A stretch of DNA of 64,000 nucleotides from Sulfuricella sp. (GTDB lineage: Bacteria; Pseudomonadota; Gammaproteobacteria; Burkholderiales; Sulfuricellaceae), in assembly GCA_018336195.1 (NCBI GenBank), contig JAGXQV010000211.1, positions 1-64,000 of the forward strand. Reading direction: 5' to 3'. Each line of letters begins with the position of its first letter. The stretch's first letter is position 1. Below the pieces are notes generated by a model. That model saw only the letters and a program-made list of their open reading frames with translations, was not told the DNA's origin and made no database searches. Positions 24,190-37,535 of the stretch are shown in pieces. A program made the translations under genes and the position numbers.

Positions 24190-25545
24190 ATGAGACATAG
24201 TTATCGCCTGGAATCCGTTGCCCTGCATGAAGTGGGCGTGTTTGACGACGTGCGCCTGGATTTTCCCCCGCTGCCGCAAAAGGACAGCGAGGAGGACAAG
24301 GCGGAAATTCATTTGTTCACCGGACCGAACGGGTGTGGGAAGAGCACGTTGCTTTATGCGTTGGCGGAAGTGTTTGATGAATTTGGGCGTTTTGGTGACT
24401 TTGATGTAGAAAGGCAGATATATCGAAGGTTTCGTGGCTTGAATAGCAGCATTGAATTTTCATTTCTTGGTGAACGTGGGTGTTACGGGGCAAACAAAAA
24501 TGCCAATAAATTAATTGTTTCTGGATTAATTCAATTATTTAAGTCTACTGGAGATTGTTTTTTTGGCACAAAATCGGACTTGTTGAGGAAGTACAAGGAT
24601 GCGACTTTAGGAGCCAGTAAACGATACATGGGGCACACATTTTCTTTTGCGGTCTTCGCCTATTCGGGGCAGCGCAGTCTGCGCGATACGCCAGTCACCG
24701 CCATCCAGCAAGTCACCAATCCTCTTTTTGAAGCAGCGCTATCCTTCGACGGAGGTAATCGTCCCCAAGTATTACAGCAATGGATCGCCAACAACCGTGC
24801 GCAATCCGCGCTGGCTAAAGCCGATGGAGAAAACGGGGCTGCGGCAATCTACGACCAGGCTCTCGCACGTATTACTAGCCTGATCCGCGATGTCTGCGAC
24901 TTGGAATTGGAATTCCGCCTGGAACGCTCGCCGCTGGCGGTGGTCGCCCGATTGAATGGGGAAACCGTGCATTTCGATAGCCTGCCCGACGGCCTGAAAT
25001 CCATCATCAGTTGGGTTGGTGACTTGGCCTTGCGTCTCGAAGCCATCCCCTGGAAAGAACCGGGGGATGTGTTCGCCCAGCCGGTTATCCTGTTTCTCGA
25101 CGAGGTGGACATCCACCTGCATCCCAAGTGGCAGCGGCGCATTCTGCCGGCCATTCAGAAGCTGCTGCCCAACGGTCAGGTCTTTGTTTCCACGCATTCG
25201 CCTTTTGTTGTTGGTTCGGTCGAGGACGCTTGGGTTTATAAGCTGCCGGAAGGCGGACACACTGCCGGTACCATAGCGGCCATTCCTTCCGGGGCGGGTA
25301 AGAGTTATCGGCTGATACTCGAAGAGGTGTTTGGTATCGAAGGCGAATTCGATGTCGAGACCGAAGGACTGTTCGAGGAATTTTACAGGCTGCGCGAAGT
25401 GTTTTTGAAAGACCCGTCCAACCCCCAAGCCTTGTTGGAAGCAGCCGCCAAATTGGCGGAGCGCGGCGAGGAGGCGAAGTTGATCGTTGCCCGCGAGTTG
25501 CGTCAAATCGCGCGGATTTCCGGGAAGGAACTGGGTCTTGCGTAA
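24190..25545 (+). CDS. ptuA: Septu-type defence ATPase PtuA-like
   Basis: A 451-aa ABC/SMC-like AAA ATPase. Walker A GPNGCGKST is near residue 46, Walker B VILFLDEVD near 299, with HLHPKWQRR following and the H-loop STHSPF near 333; the C-terminus is helical. It lacks a TOPRIM nuclease domain, so it is not an OLD protein. The downstream gene, overlapping by 8 bases, encodes a PtuB-type HNH nuclease, the defining partner of Septu anti-phage systems. Residues about 66-155 (24385-24655) are strikingly AT-rich compared with both flanks. No retron reverse transcriptase is nearby. Confidence 0.82.
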   Translation: MRHSYRLESVALHEVGVFDDVRLDFPPLPQKDSEEDKAEIHLFTGPNGCGKSTLLYALAEVFDEFGRFGDFDVERQIYRRFRGLNSSIEFSFLGERGCYGANKNANKLIVSGLIQLFKSTGDCFFGTKSDLLRKYKDATLGASKRYMGHTFSFAVFAYSGQRSLRDTPVTAIQQVTNPLFEAALSFDGGNRPQVLQQWIANNRAQSALAKADGENGAAAIYDQALARITSLIRDVCDLELEFRLERSPLAVVARLNGETVHFDSLPDGLKSIISWVGDLALRLEAIPWKEPGDVFAQPVILFLDEVDIHLHPKWQRRILPAIQKLLPNGQVFVSTHSPFVVGSVEDAWVYKLPEGGHTAGTIAAIPSGAGKSYRLILEEVFGIEGEFDVETEGLFEEFYRLREVFLKDPSNPQALLEAAAKLAERGEEAKLIVARELRQIARISGKELGLA

Positions 25546-26116
25546 GCTCGTCCGGCCAGCCTCGCCGGATTGTCTCGCCGCGAATGCCCAGGCTTGGACA
25601 GGCGATTTTGTCACGGCGCGCGCGCGTGAACCCGACTTTCGCTTTAGCTGGCGCAGCGATCCTTGTTATCGGGAAATTCGCTCCCGACTGTCGGCAATGA
25701 CCCAGGCGCATTGCGCATTTTGCGACGGGCCGGTAGGCGTCGAGAGCCGCGAGACGGTCGAGCATTTCCGCCCCAAGTCGCGCTTCCCTGAATTGGCTTA
25801 CCAATGGGAAAACCTGTTTCCCTGTTGCGATATGTGCCAGTCGAAAAAACTTGAGCGTTTCGACCCGGCGCTATTGAAGCCGGACGAAGCCGACTATGCG
25901 TTCGAGCGTTACTTCGTGGCGAATTACCTAACCGGCAAGGTCGAGCCGCTGCCCGGTTTGGATGACACCACAAAGAAACGGGCGGAAGTCACCATTGCGA
26001 TGTACGGCTTGAATATTGAAGCGCGCAAGATAGCCAGAATTCGCGAGTGGGAAAGCTATTGTCGGGACGCAGCGCCTTGCCTAGACGACTACAGTTACCG
26101 CTTTTTCTTGGCTTGA
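25538..26116 (+). CDS. ptuB: Septu-type HNH endonuclease PtuB-like
   Basis: A 192-aa HNH nuclease of the TIGR02646/PtuB type. The metal- and catalysis-linked motif reads CAFCDG, then [10 protein letters not shown], then [15 protein letters not shown] (residues about 63-110): two CxxC pairs surround the EHFRPKS core. Translation most likely starts at TTG 25538 ([14 protein letters not shown] when initiated), eight bases inside ptuA, because GGAAGGAA lies upstream and the family starts this way. The overlap implies coupled synthesis of the ATPase and nuclease. hemH follows 16 bases after the stop, so the pair may ride on the hrcA-hemH transcript. Confidence 0.85.
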
Positions 26117-26132: not shown

Positions 26133-27302
26133 ATGTCCAGCATGTTTCTCCCCGAACCCCCCTACCGCCACGGCCAACCCGCGCGCACCGCCGTGCTGCT
26201 GGTCAATCTCGGCACCCCGCAAGCGCCCACTGCTGCGGCGGTGCGGCCCTATCTGAAAGAATTCCTCTCCGACCCGCGCGTGGTGGAGATGCCGCGCGTC
26301 CTGTGGTGGCTGATCCTCAACGGCGTCATCCTCAACACCCGCCCCAGGAAATCCGCCGAGAAATACGCACAAGTCTGGATGGCGGAGGGTTCGCCGCTGC
26401 TGGTGCATACGCAACGGCAGGCGGCGTTGCTGGGAGAGTTGCTGGAATTGCCTTTTCCGGCGGACTCCGGGGATGCCCTCACCCCAACCCTCTCCCAGAG
26501 GGAGAGGGGGCAAACGGCTGTCCCCCTGAAAAGCGGGGGGGCAGGTTCTGTTTTGACCGCCTACGCCATGCGCTACGGTCAGCCCTCCATCGCGTCGGTG
26601 CTGGCGAAACTCAAGGAACAAGGTTGCACCCGCATCCTGACCTTGCCGCTCTACCCGCAATATTCGGCGAGCACCACGGCGACGGTGTTCGATGCCTTGT
26701 TTGCGGCGCTGGCGCAGACCCGCAACCAGCCGGAGATCCGCACGGTGCGCGGCTTTCACGACCATCCTGCGTATATCGCGGCACTGGCGGCGAACGTGTG
26801 CGATTTCTGGGCCGCTCACGGCAAGTCGGACAAGCTGTTGATGAGCTTTCACGGGGTGCCGCGCGCGACTCTCGATCTGGGCGACCCTTACCATTGTGAA
26901 TGCCTCAAGACCGGGCGTTTACTGGCGGAGGCGCTGGCGCTCCAGCCCGAGGAATATCGGGTGACCTTTCAGTCGCGCTTCGGGCGTGCCGAGTGGCTGC
27001 AACCCTATACCGCCGCGACTCTGGAGGAACTGGGCAAGCAGGGGGTGAAACGCCTCGATGTGGTATGTCCCGGTTTCGTTGCCGATTGCCTGGAAACCCT
27101 GGAAGAAATTGCGCTGGAGGGTAAGGCCTCTTTCCTCAATGCGGGGGGCGGCGAGTACCGCTACATCCCCGCGCTCAACGAGCATCCGCAATGGATTGCC
27201 GCGCTTGTCGCGATTGCCGGCGAGCATCTGGGCGGCTGGCCGGGCGAGTGCGCCGACCCGCACAGCCGGGAGCGCGCCTTGGCGGCGGGCGCCCCAAACT
27301 GA
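26133..27302 (+). CDS. hemH: Ferrochelatase HemH, with in-frame repeat insertion
   Basis: HemH inserts iron into protoporphyrin IX in the last step of heme synthesis. Family landmarks: [33 protein letters not shown], the active-site histidine in LMSFHGVP near residue 240, [18 protein letters not shown] and [15 protein letters not shown]. The protein (389 aa) is longer than usual because about 30 residues between ELLELPF and YAMRYGQPS are encoded by palindromic repeat DNA ([12 protein letters not shown]). The reading frame stays open and both conserved sides are intact. GAAGG precedes the ATG. Confidence 0.95.
26476..26550. repeat. Palindromic repeat inserted in frame in hemH
   Basis: CCCTCACCCCAACCCTCTCC begins the element. 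Its core has perfect 9-bp arms CCCTCTCCC and GGGAGAGGG around AGA (26488-26508), and a second hairpin CCCCC-tgaaaagc-GGGGG follows (26522-26539). This is a widespread bacterial genomic repeat, often read as PTLSQRERG when it falls inside genes. Confidence 0.85.
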
Positions 27303-28605: not shown

Positions 28606-31140
28606 ATGCCAGCCAGCGCTTCGCCAGCCGACCGCGAGATGTTGCAAGACATCTCGCTGCTTTACGTCGAGGATGATCGGCTAACCCGCGAAATCCTGGT
28701 TGATCTGCTGTCGAAGCGCGTCGCGCAAGTTTATGTCGCGAGCAACGGCGCGGAGGGGCTGGAGGCTTTCCGCCAGCATCGTCCCGACATCGTCCTCAGC
28801 GATATCCGTATGCCGGTGATGGATGGATTGGCGATGGCGGTGTCTATCAAGCAGCTTTCGCCCGACACGCCCATCATCATTACCACGGCTCACCAGGAAG
28901 CGCCTTTGCTGATGCGCGCCATCGAAGTCGGCATCGACAAGTTTCTCGTCAAACCCATCGCGCCTGCCTCCCTTTACGAGGCACTGCTGGTGTGCGCCAA
29001 GCCGCTGAAAATGGCCAGGCAGTTGCGCGACAGCGAGGGAAAATACCGGCTGATGATGCAGCAGGCGACGGATGGAATTTTCCTTGCCGATCGCGATGGC
29101 AGGCTGCTTGAGGTGAATCCCCGCGGCTGCCGGATGCTGGGTTTCGAGCGTGAGGAGTTGTTGGCTTTCAATATGCGCGACCTGGTTCATCCCGAACATC
29201 TCGAACAGGTCGATGACGTGATCCGCCAGGTTTTCGCGGGCCGGCCGATTCTGGCCGAATCGCGGCTGCGTCGCAAATCCGGTGCTTACCTGGAAGTTGA
29301 AGTCGGTGCCGGGCCATTGGATGGCCGGCAGTTCATGACCACCGTGCGCGACATTACCCGGCGCAAGTTGGCCCAGCAGATGCAACGCGAAAGCGAGGAA
29401 AAATTCCGCCTGATCACCGAAGGTATCGGCGATCTGATCGCCTTGGTCAATACTCAGGGTAAGCGTTTGTATAACAGCCCGTCTTACCGGCAGATTCTCG
29501 GCAAGGTGCCGCTGCTGGGCAGCGATTCCTTTCAGGAAATCCACCCGGAAGATCGTGAGCGGATGCGTGAGTTGTTTGCCGAAACGATACGCAGCGGGGT
29601 CGGCAAACAGGCTTGCTACCGTTTTCTCCTGGATGACGGCAGCATCCGCCACATCGAGTCCAATGCCAGCGTTATCAAGGACGAGAAAGGGGCGCCGCTC
29701 AAGGTGGTCATCGTGTCGCGCGACGTTACCGAGCGCAAGCTTGCCGCGGACGCCCTGGCGGCTTCCCACGCGATGTTCGCCACAGTACTCGACGGACTCG
29801 ACGCGCTGGTTTACGTGGCGGATATGGACACCTATGAAATCATCTTCGCCAATCGTTATGCGCACGAACTTTTTGGCGGCGATCTGGCCGGAAGAGTTTG
29901 CTGGCAGTTGTTACAAAAAGGCCAGAGCGGTCCCTGTGCCTTCTGTTCCAACGCCCGACTGCTCGACGCGCAAGGCCAGCCGACGGGCGTTTACGTTTGG
30001 GAATTTTGCAATACCCTTACCCAGCGTTGGTACCAGATTCACGACCAGGCTATCCACTGGGTCGACGGGCGCATTGTGCGCATGGAGATCGCCACCGACA
30101 TTACCCATCTCAAGGTTGTCGAGGAAGCCTTGCGCTACAGCGAGCATAACCTTGCCGAAGCCCAGCGCATCGCCCATCTGGGGAGCTGGGAATGGCAGGT
30201 TCGGGACGGCATGGTTTCTTATTCCGAGGAAACTGCGCGGATCCTGGAGCTTCCCCAAGCTGCGCGGGTGTGCAGTATCGACGAATTTCACCGGAATACC
30301 GTGCCGGCAGACCGGCTCACCATGCTTTTCGCCCTTGAGGACACCCTTCGCGAGGCGCGACCTTTCGAAGTCGAGTACCGTACCCGCGATGCCGCGGGAA
30401 ACATCCGTTACCTGCACAGCGTGGCGGAAGTGGGGCGCGATGCGGGGGGGAAACCGATTCGGCTGATTGGATCCATCCAGGACATCACCGAACACCGCGA
30501 ACTCGAAGAAACCATCCTCGACATCGGAGAAAGCGTGCGCCGCACGGTCGGTCAGGAACTTCACGACGGCCTGGGGCAACATCTCACCGGCCTGGGTTTC
30601 GTTGCCAAGACCCTGGAGTTCAAACTCTCCGAACAGGGGCTGGGGGAAGCCGCCGATGCCGCCCGCATCGTTCAGGCAGTCACGTCGGCCATCGACCAGA
30701 CACGCACTCTGGCGAAAGGCCTGTTTCCAGTGGAACTGGAAGAAAATGGCCTGATTCCCGCCCTGGAAATGCTCGCCGCCAATACCCACATCATTTTTGG
30801 TATCAAATGTTCTTTTCAATATGATAATGACGTGTTAATTTTCGCCAAGGACGATGCGATCCATCTCTACCGTATCGCCCAGGAAGCCATCAGCAATGCC
30901 ATTCGCCATGGTCAGGCCGAGAATGTCGCCATCAGGCTGATGTCGACCAACAACGGTATTGATTTGAGCATTGCCGACGACGGTATCGGTATTGCGCCGG
31001 GAATGCTTGCCAAGGTTCATGGAATGGGGCTACGCATCATGGAATATCGAGCCAAATTGATCGGCGCCACTTTGAAAATCATGCGGGCGCCTAACGGCGG
31101 AACCATCGTATCCATTAAAAATGGGAAATCGCGTCAATGA
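28606..31140 (+). CDS. Hybrid sensor kinase: receiver, multiple PAS, NarX-type kinase
   Basis: An 844-aa cytoplasmic signalling protein with no membrane segment. Domains in order: receiver (about 15-130, phospho-aspartate in DIVLSDIRMP near 65), a first PAS (about 145-265, ending TTVRDITRRK), a second (270-385, VSRDVTERK), a third with a cysteine pair CAFCS (about 390-510), a fourth (520-645, GSIQDITEH), then HisKA_3 with the phospho-histidine in ELHDGLGQHLTGL near 651, and a HATPase (RIAQEAISNAIRHGQ, ADDGIGIAPGM). The CAFCS-containing domain may bind a metal or sense redox state; this is inference. Its last codons overlap the start of the NarL-type regulator by ATGA. Confidence 0.9.
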   Translation: MPASASPADREMLQDISLLYVEDDRLTREILVDLLSKRVAQVYVASNGAEGLEAFRQHRPDIVLSDIRMPVMDGLAMAVSIKQLSPDTPIIITTAHQEAPLLMRAIEVGIDKFLVKPIAPASLYEALLVCAKPLKMARQLRDSEGKYRLMMQQATDGIFLADRDGRLLEVNPRGCRMLGFEREELLAFNMRDLVHPEHLEQVDDVIRQVFAGRPILAESRLRRKSGAYLEVEVGAGPLDGRQFMTTVRDITRRKLAQQMQRESEEKFRLITEGIGDLIALVNTQGKRLYNSPSYRQILGKVPLLGSDSFQEIHPEDRERMRELFAETIRSGVGKQACYRFLLDDGSIRHIESNASVIKDEKGAPLKVVIVSRDVTERKLAADALAASHAMFATVLDGLDALVYVADMDTYEIIFANRYAHELFGGDLAGRVCWQLLQKGQSGPCAFCSNARLLDAQGQPTGVYVWEFCNTLTQRWYQIHDQAIHWVDGRIVRMEIATDITHLKVVEEALRYSEHNLAEAQRIAHLGSWEWQVRDGMVSYSEETARILELPQAARVCSIDEFHRNTVPADRLTMLFALEDTLREARPFEVEYRTRDAAGNIRYLHSVAEVGRDAGGKPIRLIGSIQDITEHRELEETILDIGESVRRTVGQELHDGLGQHLTGLGFVAKTLEFKLSEQGLGEAADAARIVQAVTSAIDQTRTLAKGLFPVELEENGLIPALEMLAANTHIIFGIKCSFQYDNDVLIFAKDDAIHLYRIAQEAISNAIRHGQAENVAIRLMSTNNGIDLSIADDGIGIAPGMLAKVHGMGLRIMEYRAKLIGATLKIMRAPNGGTIVSIKNGKSRQ

Positions 31141-31850
31141 AACCCAACCGTAGTTTACGGAAGTCCAGCATCATGATCGTCGACGATCACGCGATGGTGC
31201 GCGAAGGCATCGCGGAGCTTATTAACCGCGAGCCAGACATGCAGGTTTGTTGCGGTGTGGCGAGTGTCGCCGAAGCATTGCGGGTGCTTCACGAGCCTGC
31301 CGCCGAGACGCCGGCCCACAGCGGTTTGCCCGACTTGATGATCGTGGATATTTCGCTGGACGGCGTATCCGGACTGGAGCTGGTGCATACCGTCAAAACC
31401 CGCTACCCGCAGATACCCATGCTGATGATGTCGATGCACGACGAAAATCTCCACGCCGAACGCTCGCTGCGAGCCGGGGCAAAAGGCTACATTATGAAGC
31501 AGGAGGCCTTCGACAAGGTGCTGGTCGCCATCCGTAAGGTGTTGGCTGGCGAAATCTACCTGAGCGACAGCATGCACAGCAAGATGCTGCAGCGCATGTT
31601 GAATCCTCAGGCGCAATCCGATACGTCCCCGATTTCGGCACTGAGCGACCGCGAACTGGAAGTCCTGCGCTTGACCGGGCTGGGCTTCAGCACCGCGCAA
31701 ATCGCCGAACAACTGCATCGCAGCATCAAGACCGTGGAGGCGAACCGCGCCCGCATCAAGGAAAAGCTCAACCTCAAAGGCAATGCCGATTACGTGCGTT
31801 TCGCCGTCCAGTGGTTGGGTAACGAATCCTCCGCTTTCTCCGCGAACTGA
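31137..31850 (+). CDS. NarL/FixJ family response regulator
   Basis: A 237-aa regulator: receiver domain (about 10-140, SIMIVDDHAMVREGI, phospho-aspartate in DLMIVDISLDG near 66, lysine in GAKGYIMKQ near 121) and a C-terminal LuxR-type HTH (about 170-230, LSDRELEVLRLTGLGFSTAQ, then HRSIKTVEANRARIKEKL). It overlaps the hybrid kinase gene by four bases (ATGA) and is surely its partner. Targets are unknown; the cysteine-rich mini-protein and HD-GYP genes downstream are candidates. Confidence 0.93.
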   Translation: MKPNRSLRKSSIMIVDDHAMVREGIAELINREPDMQVCCGVASVAEALRVLHEPAAETPAHSGLPDLMIVDISLDGVSGLELVHTVKTRYPQIPMLMMSMHDENLHAERSLRAGAKGYIMKQEAFDKVLVAIRKVLAGEIYLSDSMHSKMLQRMLNPQAQSDTSPISALSDRELEVLRLTGLGFSTAQIAEQLHRSIKTVEANRARIKEKLNLKGNADYVRFAVQWLGNESSAFSAN

Positions 31851-31862
31851 TGGTGGCGCCGC

Positions 31863-31910
31863 GAATTCCATGAGCGATTAGGACATTCCCCTAATCGTTT
31901 CCTGGAATTC
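31863..31910. terminator. Nested inverted repeats after the response regulator
   Basis: GAATTCCA (31863-31870) pairs with TGGAATTC (31903-31910), and inside them CGATTAGG (31875-31882) pairs with CCTAATCG (31890-31897), followed by TTT. Location right after the regulator stop suggests a terminator or a cruciform binding site. Confidence 0.55.
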
Positions 31911-32058
31911 GGTCCCTGTCGATTATTCCGGAATCCTTAACGAAATACAGTCGTTTCACGATATCGGTATCGCTTTCGATCGCTTAAAGTTACCCCATCC
32001 TGTGGCACGTTCCGATGTTCCACATTCTTGGGCCAACATAGCGAAAGAAAGGTTAGCC

Positions 32059-32298
32059 ATGTATATCGCCAACGAAAGTGAAAAAAGCTGTTGCACTTGC
32101 AACAACTGGAGTGGCACCCGCGTTCTCGAAGGGGCCGGTTTCGTCTATTCACTCGAAGAATTGCAGGGGATTTGCAAAGGGTTGCGGCAGCGGTTCGCCG
32201 TAAACGAATTCGATCATGCATTGACTCAACCGAACTCCACCTGCGCCTCCTGGGAAAAATGGCAAAGTCTCGCCATTCCCCACGTGAATGCACATTGA
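32059..32298 (+). CDS. Cysteine-rich mini-protein, paralogue 1
   Basis: A 79-aa protein I cannot name. It shares a clear pattern with the protein at 34158-34493: CCTCNNWSGTRVLEGAGFVY, then SLEELQGIC and, near the end, STCASWEKW. The spacing CC-x-C ... C ... C-x-SW suggests a small zinc- or Fe-S-binding fold; ligands are inferred. AAAGG precedes ATG 32059 by 7 bases, which decides this start. It lies between the NarL-type regulator and the HD-GYP gene. No signal peptide or membrane segment is present. Confidence 0.75.
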   Translation: MYIANESEKSCCTCNNWSGTRVLEGAGFVYSLEELQGICKGLRQRFAVNEFDHALTQPNSTCASWEKWQSLAIPHVNAH

Positions 32299-32580
32299 TG
32301 GAATGTCAAGCAACTCCAGCGTGCAGTAATCCTTCCCAATACTTACGGCAACGGCGCGTCCCGAACCGTACGATATCCCGCCAATACGGACGGATTTCCG
32401 TCATCAAAATCAAATTGTTAGGCCGTTGGCGTTTCTTGCCGTTGTGAGAAGCGGTGAGGAATCGTGAGTGGTGCGGAATTGGATTTGATCTAAGATCCCG
32501 TTAGTTCGTTAGAAACTCCCGCTGTTCGCGGGGGCGGCTATTCCTGTCTGCACCACAGGCAATCCATTGGGTATTCGGTA

Positions 32581-33795
32581 ATGATCAAGAACGTCAGTGT
32601 CGCAAAGCTCACTCCGGGCATGTACATCCACGACCTCAACTGCGCTTGGATGGAACACCCTTTTACCCTCAATCAATTCAAGATTTCTTCGTCGGATCAG
32701 ATCAAGGTTATTGCCGATGCCGGCCTCCACGAAGTTTATATCGACACCGAAAAAGGCTCGGATGTAGCCGATGCTCAGACCGTCCAGGAAGTGAAGGCGG
32801 AACTGGATGCCAAGATGGTGGAAATCGCCACTGAAATTCCCGAACCCGAGCAACATCGCGCGATTGCCGAAGAAATGGTCAAGGCCAAGAGGGCGTACAG
32901 CGAAGCCAACCGCATCATCACCAACATGATGCAGGATATCCGCCTGGGTAAGCAGGTCGAGACCGAGCAGGCGGCAGCGGTGGTCGAGCAGATGACCAAC
33001 TCGATTTTTCGCAACAAGGATGCCCTGTTGAGCCTGACCCGTCTGCGCGGCAAGGATGACTATACCTTCCAGCATTCGGTAAGCGTCTGCACCCTCCTGG
33101 TTTCCTTCGCCCGCGCCCTCGGATTGGGGCGTGAGACCATCCAGGCCATCGGGGTCGGTGCGCTGCTCCATGACGTGGGCAAGATGAAGGTGCCGGATGC
33201 GGTGCTCAACAAGCCCGGCAAGCTCACCGACGACGAATTCAAGATCATGAAAAGCCATGTGGTGCATAGCCGCATCTTGCTGGAAGACACGCCGGGCATG
33301 ACCCAGATCGGCATCGACGTGGCGGCGCAGCATCATGAACGCTACGACGGCAGCGGCTATCCGCTGGGCCTGAAAGGCGATGGGATTTCCCTGTACGGGC
33401 AGATGGCCGCCATCGTCGATGTCTACGACGCGATCACCGCCGATCGTTGCTACCACAAGGGCATGGAAACTCCGCTGGCGCTACGCAAGCTGGTGGAATG
33501 GAGCAAATTCCACTTCAACGAAAAGCTGGTGCATGGTTTCGTGCGTTCGGTGGGTATCTACCCGGTGGGCACCCTGGTCAAGCTGGAAAGCGAGTTGTTG
33601 GGAATCGTCTTCGAGCAGCACGAGAAAAACCTGCTCACTCCGAAAATCCGCCTGATTTACGACAGCAAACGCAAGAACTACATCACGCCCCGCGACGTCG
33701 ACCTCGCCAAGCCCTTAGGCAAGGGCGGGGCGGACCGCATCCTGGGCTACGAAGATCCCAAGAACTGGAATATCGATCCCATGAAATACCTGTAA
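32581..33795 (+). CDS. HD-GYP domain c-di-GMP phosphodiesterase
   Basis: A 404-aa protein with an N-terminal DUF3391 region (KLTPGMYIHDLNCAWMEHPF) and a complete HD-GYP domain (about residues 155-335): HSVSVCTLL, LLHDVGKMKVPD near 197, HHERYDGSGYPLGL near 256. All metal-binding residues and the GYP-type motif are kept, so it should hydrolyse c-di-GMP. The tail (TPRDVDLAKPLG, GADRILGYEDP) is usual in this subgroup. It sits between two paralogous cysteine-rich mini-proteins. The leader (32299-32580) has hairpins CCCGC/GCGGG and CCTGT/ACAGG but no clear Shine-Dalgarno. Confidence 0.93.
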   Translation: MIKNVSVAKLTPGMYIHDLNCAWMEHPFTLNQFKISSSDQIKVIADAGLHEVYIDTEKGSDVADAQTVQEVKAELDAKMVEIATEIPEPEQHRAIAEEMVKAKRAYSEANRIITNMMQDIRLGKQVETEQAAAVVEQMTNSIFRNKDALLSLTRLRGKDDYTFQHSVSVCTLLVSFARALGLGRETIQAIGVGALLHDVGKMKVPDAVLNKPGKLTDDEFKIMKSHVVHSRILLEDTPGMTQIGIDVAAQHHERYDGSGYPLGLKGDGISLYGQMAAIVDVYDAITADRCYHKGMETPLALRKLVEWSKFHFNEKLVHGFVRSVGIYPVGTLVKLESELLGIVFEQHEKNLLTPKIRLIYDSKRKNYITPRDVDLAKPLGKGGADRILGYEDPKNWNIDPMKYL

Positions 33796-34157
33796 TGGGG
33801 GAGAGTATCCCGTAGCAAGTTCCGCAGTGCCACCAACCGTGACTCCCAGGGAGCCACCTAATCCCGCCCAAGTATTCGCCCCCCGCAGATTTCCCGGAAA
33901 CCTCGCGGAAATACCACCGTTTCTCGATTCCTGTCGGAGCATTAAGCCCTTAGAGTCACGCTATTCCAGCTTTCCGGGCGTGTGCCAAGGGGAGGGCGGC
34001 TCACTAAAAAACTCCGCCAGCCATGCGCTAAATGCCCGACTGTTATGGTGAGAATTTGTGAGTGGAAAATTTGCCGGGTTCATACAAAATGGCGGTATGA
34101 GGTGGCATGTCCACCGCTAAATATGGTGGTTTTGTCGATACGGGAAAGGACCGCAAA
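33796..34157. other. Gap of 360 bp before the second mini-protein
   Basis: No gene is seen. Small palindromes include GGCGG/CCGCC around 34003-34016 and GGTGG-catgt-CCACC (34101-34115), the latter 43 bp before the next start codon. A long leader with regulatory structure is possible. Confidence 0.5.
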
Positions 34158-34493
34158 ATGTTAATCGTCAAATTGTCGGAGCGTAACTGCTGCACGTGCG
34201 ACCACTGGAGCGGGACGCGCATCGTGGAAGAAGACGGTTTCGTCTATTCCCTGGAAAACCTCGAAGGCGTTTGTACCCTGTCGTGTCGAAGTTCCAACGA
34301 AATGGTGGTGCTTTCCACGCCTTCCGGAACTTGCGGTTCCTGGAAATTCTGGGAGGTTAGGACCGAGCCGCTACGAATCGATTACACCGAATATCTCGAT
34401 AATCCGGCTTATGCGTTTTCTTTCGAGCGAGTGGCGGACAGCGATGCGCGGCCCGGCGCCTTCCGCCATAGCGGTGAATTTGCCGGTGTTTGA
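34158..34493 (+). CDS. Cysteine-rich mini-protein, paralogue 2
   Basis: A 111-aa protein, paralogous to that at 32059-32298: NCCTCDHWSGTRIVEEDGFV, then SLENLEGVC, and SGTCGSWKFWE. The C-terminal 35 residues (YTEYLDNPAYAFSFERVADS and beyond) are an extension lacking in the first copy. AAAGGA lies 7 bases before ATG 34158. Four to five cysteines in the same order suggest a conserved metal site. Function unknown; location next to the HD-GYP gene and downstream of a CAFCS-bearing kinase hints at redox or metal signalling. Confidence 0.75.
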   Translation: MLIVKLSERNCCTCDHWSGTRIVEEDGFVYSLENLEGVCTLSCRSSNEMVVLSTPSGTCGSWKFWEVRTEPLRIDYTEYLDNPAYAFSFERVADSDARPGAFRHSGEFAGV

Positions 34494-34647: not shown

Positions 34648-34888
34648 ATCCTAAGTTCCTCAGTTGATCGTTTTCATGAGGTTTAGGATTCCGGTTCCAA
34701 ATAACTTTAATAGAGATATTGGCGCTCACCCGCCTGGTTGAGAGCACTACGGGCCGGATTGCACGGTTTTTAGGGCACATGGCGTTGTTGCAACTCCTCG
34801 GAATGGAATAGCCATTCCTCGTCGTTGCGCCTAGCCCTGTACCCGAAAAACCGCACACTCCGACCCGTTCAACTGAGGAATTTAGGAT
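34648..34888. mobile_element. MITE-like element upstream of grpE
   Basis: ATCCTAAGTTCCTCAGTTGA (34648-34667) and TCAACTGAGGAATTTAGGAT (34869-34888) are inverted repeats matching at 19 of 20 positions and enclose about 200 bp without a gene. A related terminal pair occurs at 38709-38806. The right end stops one base before the grpE ATG, and its GAGGA serves as the ribosome binding site. No transposase is present. Confidence 0.75.
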
Positions 34889-34889
34889 T

Positions 34890-35447
34890 ATGCAAGAAGA
34901 ACATCCCAATCTGCTGGATATCGCGGTAGGCGATTCCAACCCCGCCGAGGCTACCCCGGAAATCACGGATCAGCCCGACACCATGCCCAGCATGGAAGAA
35001 CTGCTCAAGCAAGCCGAACTGACTGCCCAGGAACATCACGATGCCTGGCTGCGTGCCAAGGCCGATGCGGAAAACATCCGCAAGCGTGCCCAGGGCGATA
35101 TCGAGAATGCCCGCAAGTTCGCGGTGGAGGGCTTCGCCAGCGAACTGCTGGCGGTCAAGGACAGCCTGGAAGCCGCGCTCAAGGTTGAAAACACCACCAC
35201 CGAAAGCCTGCGCAGCGGCGTGGAATTGACCCTGCGCCAGTTGAACAATGCTTTCCAGAAGTTCAACCTCGCCGAAATCGATCCGACCGGCGAAAAATTC
35301 GATCCCCACAAACACCAGGCGATGAGCATGGTGCCCAGCGATGCTGCACCCAACACCGTGGTGGCGGTGCTGCAAAAGGGCTACACCATCAACGAACGCA
35401 TCCTGCGCCCGGCGATGGTAATGGTTTCCAAACCCGCCGAGGGTTGA
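34890..35447 (+). CDS. grpE: Nucleotide exchange factor GrpE
   Basis: GrpE releases ADP from DnaK. The 185-aa protein has an acidic N-terminus, the long dimer helix ([40 protein letters not shown]) and the C-terminal beta domain with [14 protein letters not shown] and [20 protein letters not shown]. The start codon abuts the terminal repeat of a MITE-like element, which provides GAGGA 9 bases upstream. dnaK follows after 81 bp. Confidence 0.97.
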
Positions 35448-35528
35448 AAAGGACAAAGCCATCCCCACTTCGTGGACATGGCAGGTTTTGATTAACGAAT
35501 TCAGTTTAGAGCGAAGGGAAAATTCACT

Positions 35529-37466
35529 ATGGGAAAAATCATCGGTATCGACTTGGGCACCACCAACTCCTGCGTGGCAGTGATGGAAAACGGCACCCCC
35601 AAGGTCATCGAAAATGCTGAAGGGACGCGTACCACGCCGTCCATCGTCGCTTACGCCGAAGACGGCGAAGTGTTGTGCGGCGCACCGGCCAAGCGCCAGG
35701 CCGTCACCAACCCGAAGAACACCTTGTACGCGGTGAAGCGCCTGATCGGCCGCCGCTTCGACGAGAAGGAAGTGCAGAAGGACATCGACCTGATGCCCTA
35801 CACCATCGTCAAGGCCGACAACAACGACGCCTGGGTGGAAGTGCGCGGCAAGAAGATGGCCCCGCCGGAAGTTTCCGCCGCCGTGCTGCGCAAGATGAAG
35901 AAAACCGCCGAGGATTACCTGGGCGAAGAAGTCACCGAGGCCGTGATCACCGTGCCGGCCTACTTCAACGACAGCCAGCGCCAAGCCACCAAGGACGCCG
36001 GGCGCATCGCCGGCCTGGAAGTGAAGCGCATCATCAACGAACCGACCGCCGCCGCGCTGGCGTTCGGCATGGACAAGCAGGAAGGCGACCGCAAGATCGC
36101 GGTATATGACCTGGGGGGCGGCACGTTCGACATCTCCATCATCGAAATCGCCGAAATCGAAGGCGAGCACCAGTTCGAAGTGCTGTCCACCAACGGCGAC
36201 ACCTTCCTCGGCGGCGAAGACTTCGACAACCGCGTTATCGACTACCTGGCCGACGAATTCAAAAAGGAACAGGGTCTGGACCTGCGCAACGACCTGCTCG
36301 CCAAGCAGCGCCTCAAGGAAGCCGCGGAAAAGGCCAAGATCGAGCTGTCCTCGGCGCAGCAGACCGAAGTCAACCTGCCCTACATCACCGCAGACGCCAC
36401 CGGCCCGAAACACTTGGTGGTCAAGATCACCCGCGCCAAGTTCGAATCCCTGGTGGAAGACCTGGTCGAACGCACCATTGCGCCATGCAAGCAGGCGATC
36501 AAGGATTCCGGCGTCAAGCTGGAAGACATCCAGGACATCATCCTGGTCGGCGGTATGACCCGTATGCCGATGGTCCAGGAGAAGGTCAAAGCCTTTTTCG
36601 GCAAAGATCCGCGCAAGGATGTGAACCCCGACGAAGCGGTAGCCGTGGGCGCCTCCATCCAGGGCGGCGTGTTGAAGGGCGATGTGAAGGACGTGTTGCT
36701 GCTCGACGTGACTCCGCTCAGCTTGGGTATCGAAACCCTGGGCGGCGTGATGACCAAGCTGATCCAGAAGAACACCACCATCCCCACCAAGGCCAGCCAG
36801 GTATTCTCCACCGCCGACGACAACCAGAACGCCGTGACCATCCACGTCCTGCAAGGCGAGCGTGAAATCGCCGGCGGCAACAAGAGCCTCGGCCAGTTCA
36901 ACCTTTCCGACATCCCGCCGGCGCCGCGCGGTATGCCGCAGATCGAGGTCACCTTCGACATCGACGCCAACGGCATCCTCCACGTGTCCGCCAAGGACAA
37001 GGCCACCGGCAAGGAAAACAAGATCAAGATCCAGGCCAGTTCCGGCTTGAACGAGGAAGAAATCCGCCGCATGGAACAGGATGCCGCCGCCCACGCCGAC
37101 GAGGACCGCAAGGTGCGCGAAACCGTGGAAGCCCGCAACCAGTGCGACGGCATGGTGCACTCGGTGAAGAAGCTGTTGGCCGACAATGCCGACAAGATCG
37201 ACGCCGACGAAAAGACCAAGATCGAAGCAGCCCTCAAGGACGCTGAAGAAGCCATGAAGGGTAACGATAAGGAAACCATCGAAGCCAAGACCAAGGCGCT
37301 TGCGGAAGCCTCGCACAAGGTTGCGGAAAAGATGTATGCCGGTGCCCAGCCTGACCAGGCTCATCCTGGTGCGGGTGGTGAAGGCGGCGCAAGTGGTGGC
37401 GCTAAGCCCGATGACGGCAACGTGGTAGATGCCGAGTTCGAAGAAGTGAAATCCGATAAAAAGTGA
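35529..37466 (+). CDS. dnaK: Chaperone DnaK (Hsp70)
   Basis: The 645-aa Hsp70 has the full pattern: [20 protein letters not shown] at the start, the second phosphate loop [13 protein letters not shown] near residue 195, [11 protein letters not shown] near 340, the substrate domain ([17 protein letters not shown]) and a lid ending [24 protein letters not shown] precedes the ATG. It works with GrpE and DnaJ encoded on either side. The TGA stop is part of a GGTGATG-type repeat that fills the spacer to dnaJ. Confidence 0.99.
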
Positions 37467-37535
37467 TGGGGAATGGGTGATGGGTGATGGGTGATGGGAA
37501 TGTTTTTCCCATTGCCCATTGCCCATTACTCATCA
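37467..37535. repeat. GGTGATG-type hairpin between dnaK and dnaJ
   Basis: Repeated GGGTGAT units on the left and TTCCCATTGCCCATTGCCC plus ATTACTCATCAC on the right make a long G-U-rich hairpin directly after the dnaK stop and before the dnaJ ribosome binding site. It may tune dnaJ expression relative to dnaK. Related units lie at 18972-19038. Confidence 0.7.

Follow-up and report, generated by a model that had tools for sequence, protein, structure and literature searches.

Organisation of the locus

The window analysed in this work (64,000 nt of a Sulfuricella sp. contig) carries two genes for small cysteine-rich proteins, designated here P1 and P2, which lie on either side of an HD-GYP gene. 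The genes and sequence elements of the locus are the following.

28606..31140, + strand: sensor kinase with REC, PAS repeats, HisKA_3 and HATPase_c (Pfam)
31137..31850, + strand: NarL-type response regulator with Response_reg and GerE (Pfam)
31876..31896, no strand assigned: inverted repeat GATTAGG-N7-CCTAATC with 7-bp arms, between the regulator and P1, read from the sequence
32059..32298, + strand: P1, four-cysteine small protein, 79 aa
32444..32471, + strand: direct repeat GTGAG-N5-GTGAG-N5-GTGAG-TGG, upstream of the HD-GYP gene
32581..33795, + strand: HD-GYP protein, DUF3391 and HD_5 (Pfam)
34048..34065, + strand: direct repeat GTGAG-N5-GTGAG-TGG, upstream of P2
34158..34493, + strand: P2, four-cysteine small protein, 111 aa, with a 44-residue tail

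This arrangement agrees with the original prediction, which had placed the two small reading frames around the HD-GYP gene and downstream of a two-component system, here the REC-PAS-HisKA_3 kinase and the NarL-type regulator. Both proteins are, as it held, shorter than 112 residues and provided with good ribosome sites: the Shine-Dalgarno-like sequences GAAAGG (32047–32052, P1) and AAAGGA (34145–34150, P2) lie 6–7 nt 5' of the ATG codons. An in-frame ATG is present further upstream of P2, at 34107, but the homology starts only at 34158. In the HD-GYP protein the DUF3391 and HD_5 domains are matched with E values of 2.6e-35 and 8.1e-29, and the HDVGK, HH and GYP residues are intact by reading. 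The inverted repeat upstream of P1 is possibly a regulator site.

The motifs CCTCxxWSGTR, GFVYSLExLxGxC and C-x-SW, which had been named as common to P1 and P2, can indeed be read in both, as CCTCNNWSGTR, GFVYSLEELQGIC and CASW in P1 and as CCTCDHWSGTR, GFVYSLENLEGVC and CGSW in P2. The local alignment of the two proteins scores 177, while none of 2000 shuffles exceeded 57, so their relatedness is far above chance. By reading, neither of them has an export signal.

A family of small four-cysteine proteins

Further family copies had already been found by a whole-genome search with P2 as the query, and the profile search for relatives that had been proposed along with the prediction, performed with a profile built from 24 members, yields nine copies in this genome (E ≤ 7.8e-13); a tenth match with an E value of 0.145 and three stops was left out. 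Across these paralogs the core has the form C-x2-C-x2-W-x-G-x-R, some 23–24 residues, G-x-C and then C-x2-W. In the 24-row alignment C11, C14, W17, R21, G37, C39 and W62 are invariant, while G19 and C59 are at least 90% conserved; the first cysteine is lost in member L093. The gap between the third and fourth cysteines ranges from 12 to 24 in the rows that the regular expression read correctly; in certain others it settled on a G-x-C nearer the N-terminus or located no closing C-x2-W. The expected conservation of the aromatic and SGTR residues was thus confirmed in part: the W, G and R of CxxCxxWxGxR are conserved, whereas the S and T vary, which narrows the SGTR motif to G-x-R. The domain comprises 65–75 residues and is soluble. 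Two AlphaFold2 runs with six sequences gave pLDDT values of 38.2 and 39.8.

Six of the seven pairs compared have dN/dS ratios between about 0.13 and 0.44 (with dS near saturation in three), and in the seventh the ratio is undefined; for P1 and its ortholog L087 in a second species, G001, dN is 0.47 and dS, again near saturation, is 2.2. With dN well below dS, selection evidently acts on the protein sequence of the family.

The claim that the family is new held in all the libraries searched. Neither P1 nor P2 is matched by a Pfam or NCBIfam model at E ≤ 10, or by PADLOC, and in PHROGs P1 alone has a single match, at chance level (E 0.039). Among PDB sequences there is no match to P1, and the profile gives only a chance match to a NUDIX protein (E 0.69). 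Searches of viral contigs with P2 and with A2, an alignment of the close subfamily, gave no relatives, and plasmids and phages yielded none of P1. Literature searches at the level of abstracts gave nothing on the family or its motif. Judged by sequence comparison, P1 and P2 belong to an undescribed small lineage-specific domain family, and its absence from the searched libraries makes it a candidate for a domain model of its own. A remote relative (L105:7398-7766) has a Tat-like N-terminus and three of the four cysteines, the last one being lost.

Distribution, fusions and phylogeny

The family occurs in 11 of 22 genomes of its own bacterial family and in 3 of 4 genomes of a second one. Among 399 genomes drawn from the order it was found in 18, the own genome counted; in the class sample of 369 genomes only the own genome had it, and in the phylum sample two of 398 did, the own genome and a doubtful one, with a G1008 match left out because of two stops. 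The order, class and phylum searches scored 14–15 first-look candidates per genome, so that absence is weaker there than in the two family-level searches. By these searches, the proteins are confined to a few Burkholderiales families and rare elsewhere.

Most members are free-standing. Five (L068, L074, L081, L094 and L098) carry an in-frame N-terminal MarR-like winged helix, and L148, with a 216-aa frame, is probably a further fusion of this kind; L068, which was scored with the MarR model, falls below the cutoff (E 1.9e-4). In L072 and L073 a C-terminal two-CW domain (NF045718) follows, with 38 bits against the NCBIfam cutoff of 35 in L072 and a score of 28.4, below it, in L073. This domain is likewise small and rich in cysteine and tryptophan, but it is separate from and C-terminal to the four-cysteine domain, and P1 and P2, which match nothing in NCBIfam, are not members of it.

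In a tree of 33 rows P1 joins the copy of another species, weakly (94/83), and not P2; 20 of the 30 inner branches are open, and we use this tree only against a P1–P2 sister pair. In G001 the order NarL regulator, P1 ortholog, HD-GYP, grpE, dnaK, dnaJ is kept, and P2 is absent between HD-GYP and grpE. In view of the tree placement and of this absence, the idea that the two genes arose by local duplication around the HD-GYP gene is unsupported.

Genomic neighbourhood

Three types of regulator precede the CCTC-type genes: NarL, OmpR (in G000 and G001) and FixJ accompanied by a large kinase (in G055 and G099). Such genes stand directly 3' of a same-strand response regulator in three of five groups, compared with 2 of 328 genes. 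The remaining copies adjoin CheY-CheZ-EAL/HDOD-MCP, GGDEF, HDOD-REC-GGDEF or kinase genes.

For 27 family loci of G000, G001, G055 and G099 (L148 and L149 of G001 set aside), signalling genes make up 19 of the 53 nearest neighbours as against 31 of 545 random genes; part of the signalling query set came from family neighbours, which biases this comparison. For the control, gene calling covered 40 unselected stretches from the genomes G000, G055 and G099, and the genes were screened for the same signalling domains. After removal of orthologous loci by hand, 12 of 39 nearest neighbours are signalling genes (Fisher p 5e-6), and counted by group the nearest neighbour is a signalling gene in 10 of 20, compared with 36 of 441 random or 15 of 207 size-matched genes (p 4e-6). 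A GGDEF regular expression falsely marked DnaK, a second neighbour and hence outside these counts. The suggested linkage to HD-GYP or kinase genes is therefore borne out against a same-genome control. It is real but not universal: the other ten groups, among them L069, L072 and L073 of this genome, have no signalling gene as nearest neighbour.

Some further features recur at these loci. A conserved gene of about 80 aa (MNTLKKLEKRL...) is located directly 3' of CGNC-type members in L075:7208-7456, L099, L100, L101 and L152, and its L075 copy has no Pfam match. In L097, L149 and L150, from three genomes of the family, CGNC-type members adjoin an oppositely oriented REC gene followed by a GGDEF gene. 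A CGGTAAA-N2-CCTAAT-like sequence lies between the FixJ-type regulator and the CCTC gene in both L091:6182-6460 and L080:7636-7748, and in L091 it belongs to the perfect palindrome TTTACCGATCGGTAAA.

A direct repeat shared by signalling genes

Comparison of the upstream DNA revealed GTGAG units repeated with a 10-bp period, three upstream of the HD-GYP gene, two upstream of P2, three upstream of the family copy on contig C110 and two upstream of the G001 HD-GYP gene; the repeat also precedes the G001 ortholog of the C110 copy. It is absent from the DNA upstream of P1. The double repeat is found 3 times in the window, where 0.09 occurrences would be expected. The whole genome (4.77 Mb) has 5 exact triple repeats, or 7 sites with at most one mismatch, compared with none for the reversed pattern, while the 20 remaining genomes of the family, from outside the genus, have 5 sites versus 4 control matches.

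Seven of 12 sites (C48, C110, C144, C211 twice, C49 and C145) precede same-strand signalling, motility or family genes, including those for a REC protein, an EAL-HDOD protein, a CheY-kinase and FliL. The other five are placed differently: the C6 site points towards the end of an oppositely oriented gene, with the start of an MCP gene of the other orientation about 170 bp away, those of C10 and C138 are at secreted-type proteins, that of C91 is inside a coding gene, and the fifth is on C1. Three more matches (L093, L122, L132), in 1.2 Mb of fetched sequence, stand at genes with no signalling link seen. TATAAT-like hexamers, as possible -10 boxes, lie mostly 25–29 bp away from where the last repeat starts (9 sites; shuffle p 0.04 in a wide window and 0.006 in a window chosen after seeing the data).

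A tandem repeat of 10–11 bp period found before several genes and above chance is what we expect of an OmpR/PhoB-type box, and the GTGAG repeat agrees with this. As described in PMC4832192, the PhoP box of this regulator family consists of 7-bp direct repeats with a 4-bp spacer; what the two share is direct repeats in tandem, spaced by about one helical turn, in front of the target genes, and the difference lies in the GTGAG-N5 unit with its 10-bp period and in a binder that is here a candidate. The C110 family copy is adjoined by an OmpR-type regulator gene whose ortholog (66% identity) is present only in G001, other matches being at most 48% identical, and apart from the own genome G001 alone among the 22 has an exact triple repeat. 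This co-occurrence in two of 22 genomes, within one lineage, makes the C110 regulator a plausible binder of the repeat. The element, shared by several signalling genes, was not part of the original prediction, and it predicts a regulon.

Discussion

The presence of four near-invariant cysteines together with conserved Trp, Gly and Arg residues in so small a domain suggests a single metal site, with zinc as the default guess, and the winged-helix fusions and the placement beside different kinds of regulators point to an accessory function in signalling. We therefore favour, with a probability of roughly 0.38, a reading in which P1 and P2 are metal-binding accessory factors acting in trans on the local two-component and c-di-GMP circuits. 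The four cysteines would hold one metal ion, more likely zinc than an Fe-S cluster, and the small protein would bind a putative partner encoded beside each copy (the local kinase, regulator or cyclic-di-GMP enzyme) and tune it, in one direction or the other, to the metal or thiol-redox state; in the MarR-like fusions the same tuning would take place in cis. P1 would serve the conserved NarL regulator–HD-GYP locus. P2, as a second copy, would be expressed together with the HD-GYP gene from a GTGAG-repeat promoter, for which the OmpR-type regulator adjoining the C110 copy is a plausible driver. It counts against this reading that the repeat is missing before P1, the copy with the closest tie to the HD-GYP gene, that ten of the 20 groups lack a signalling gene as nearest neighbour, that L093 and L105 have each lost a cysteine and that the repeat and the regulator co-occur in a single lineage. 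A metal-binding module tied to c-di-GMP signalling would have a parallel in the CZB zinc-binding domain, which, according to PMC8262984 and PMC8846402, controls diguanylate cyclases; P1 and P2 differ from it in matching no Pfam model, in belonging to a mostly free-standing family and in their four cysteines.

It may instead be that the small genes are mere targets of the nearby regulators and have a function of their own, for example in buffering metals or thiols, an explanation that we consider improbable but worth keeping in view. The CCTC genes do lie 107–273 bp behind the regulators, which leaves room for promoters of their own, and a regulator-like direct repeat precedes both P2 and the C110 copy. 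The same repeat, however, is also found 5' of the genes for HD-GYP, the REC protein, the EAL-HDOD protein, the CheY-kinase and FliL, so it appears to mark a signalling regulon, and the winged-helix fusion and the GGDEF, HDOD and MCP neighbours fit regulation better. Those fusions, together with the DNA-binding regulators that adjoin three CCTC groups, could also be reconciled with a zinc knuckle that acts as a nucleic-acid-binding or transcription co-factor of the winged-helix regulators; we regard this as unlikely, given that nucleic-acid-binding zinc domains are unmatched in Pfam and NCBIfam and that enzyme and chemotaxis neighbours devoid of DNA-binding parts occur too.

Less probable again is a HiPIP-like protein (PF01355) or another Fe-S electron carrier. 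HiPIPs are similarly small, with four cysteines in the order CxxC...C...CxxW, and the second species, G001, is labelled Gallionellaceae, a family of iron oxidisers. One of the 24 members does match the Pfam HIPIP model (E 0.019), but with 15.7 bits against a gathering cutoff of 22 and over 27 residues only. The HiPIP C-terminal pattern, C-x(6,9)-[LIVM]-x3-G-[YW]-C-x2-[FYW] with its GWCxxW end, is missing in all 24 rows, the spacing between the second and third cysteines differs (about 23–24), no HiPIP chain appears among the PDB sequences matched by the profile at E ≤ 10, and by reading an export signal is lacking in P1 and P2. The very narrow distribution and fast divergence might finally be those of lineage-specific orphan reading frames with no cellular role; we strongly disfavour this, in view of the residues invariant over 24 rows, the low dN relative to dS and the synteny kept between species.

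The accessory-factor reading can be extended to a broader and rather doubtful proposal, in which the CxxCxxWxGxR domain would be an undescribed metal/redox input module of a Gallionellaceae-like lineage, a swappable free-standing partner copied to many two-component and c-di-GMP circuits and partly wired through the GTGAG box. The regulon would then co-express this partner with HD-GYP, the EAL-HDOD protein, the CheY-kinase and FliL. If this is right, one tiny domain could be deployed in trans beside different regulator types, and the family would offer a small testable handle on the metal/redox input to motility and biofilm decisions, with the genes behind the repeat as the predicted regulon.

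Other features of the window

At 24190-26116 a full-length PtuA-like AAA ATPase gene (Walker A intact by reading) overlaps a PtuB-like HNH gene; PADLOC assigns them as a Septu-type defence pair, with best E values of 2.1e-128 and 2.4e-76. Pfam matches to the ferrochelatase gene (26133-27302) fall into two stretches, and the palindromic repeat CCCTCACCCCAACCCTCTCCC-AGAGGGAGAGGGG stands in frame within this gene at 26477-26510. An open frame of 885 aa on the minus strand (34869-37526), antisense to grpE-dnaK, is presumably a shadow of the dnaK codon bias.
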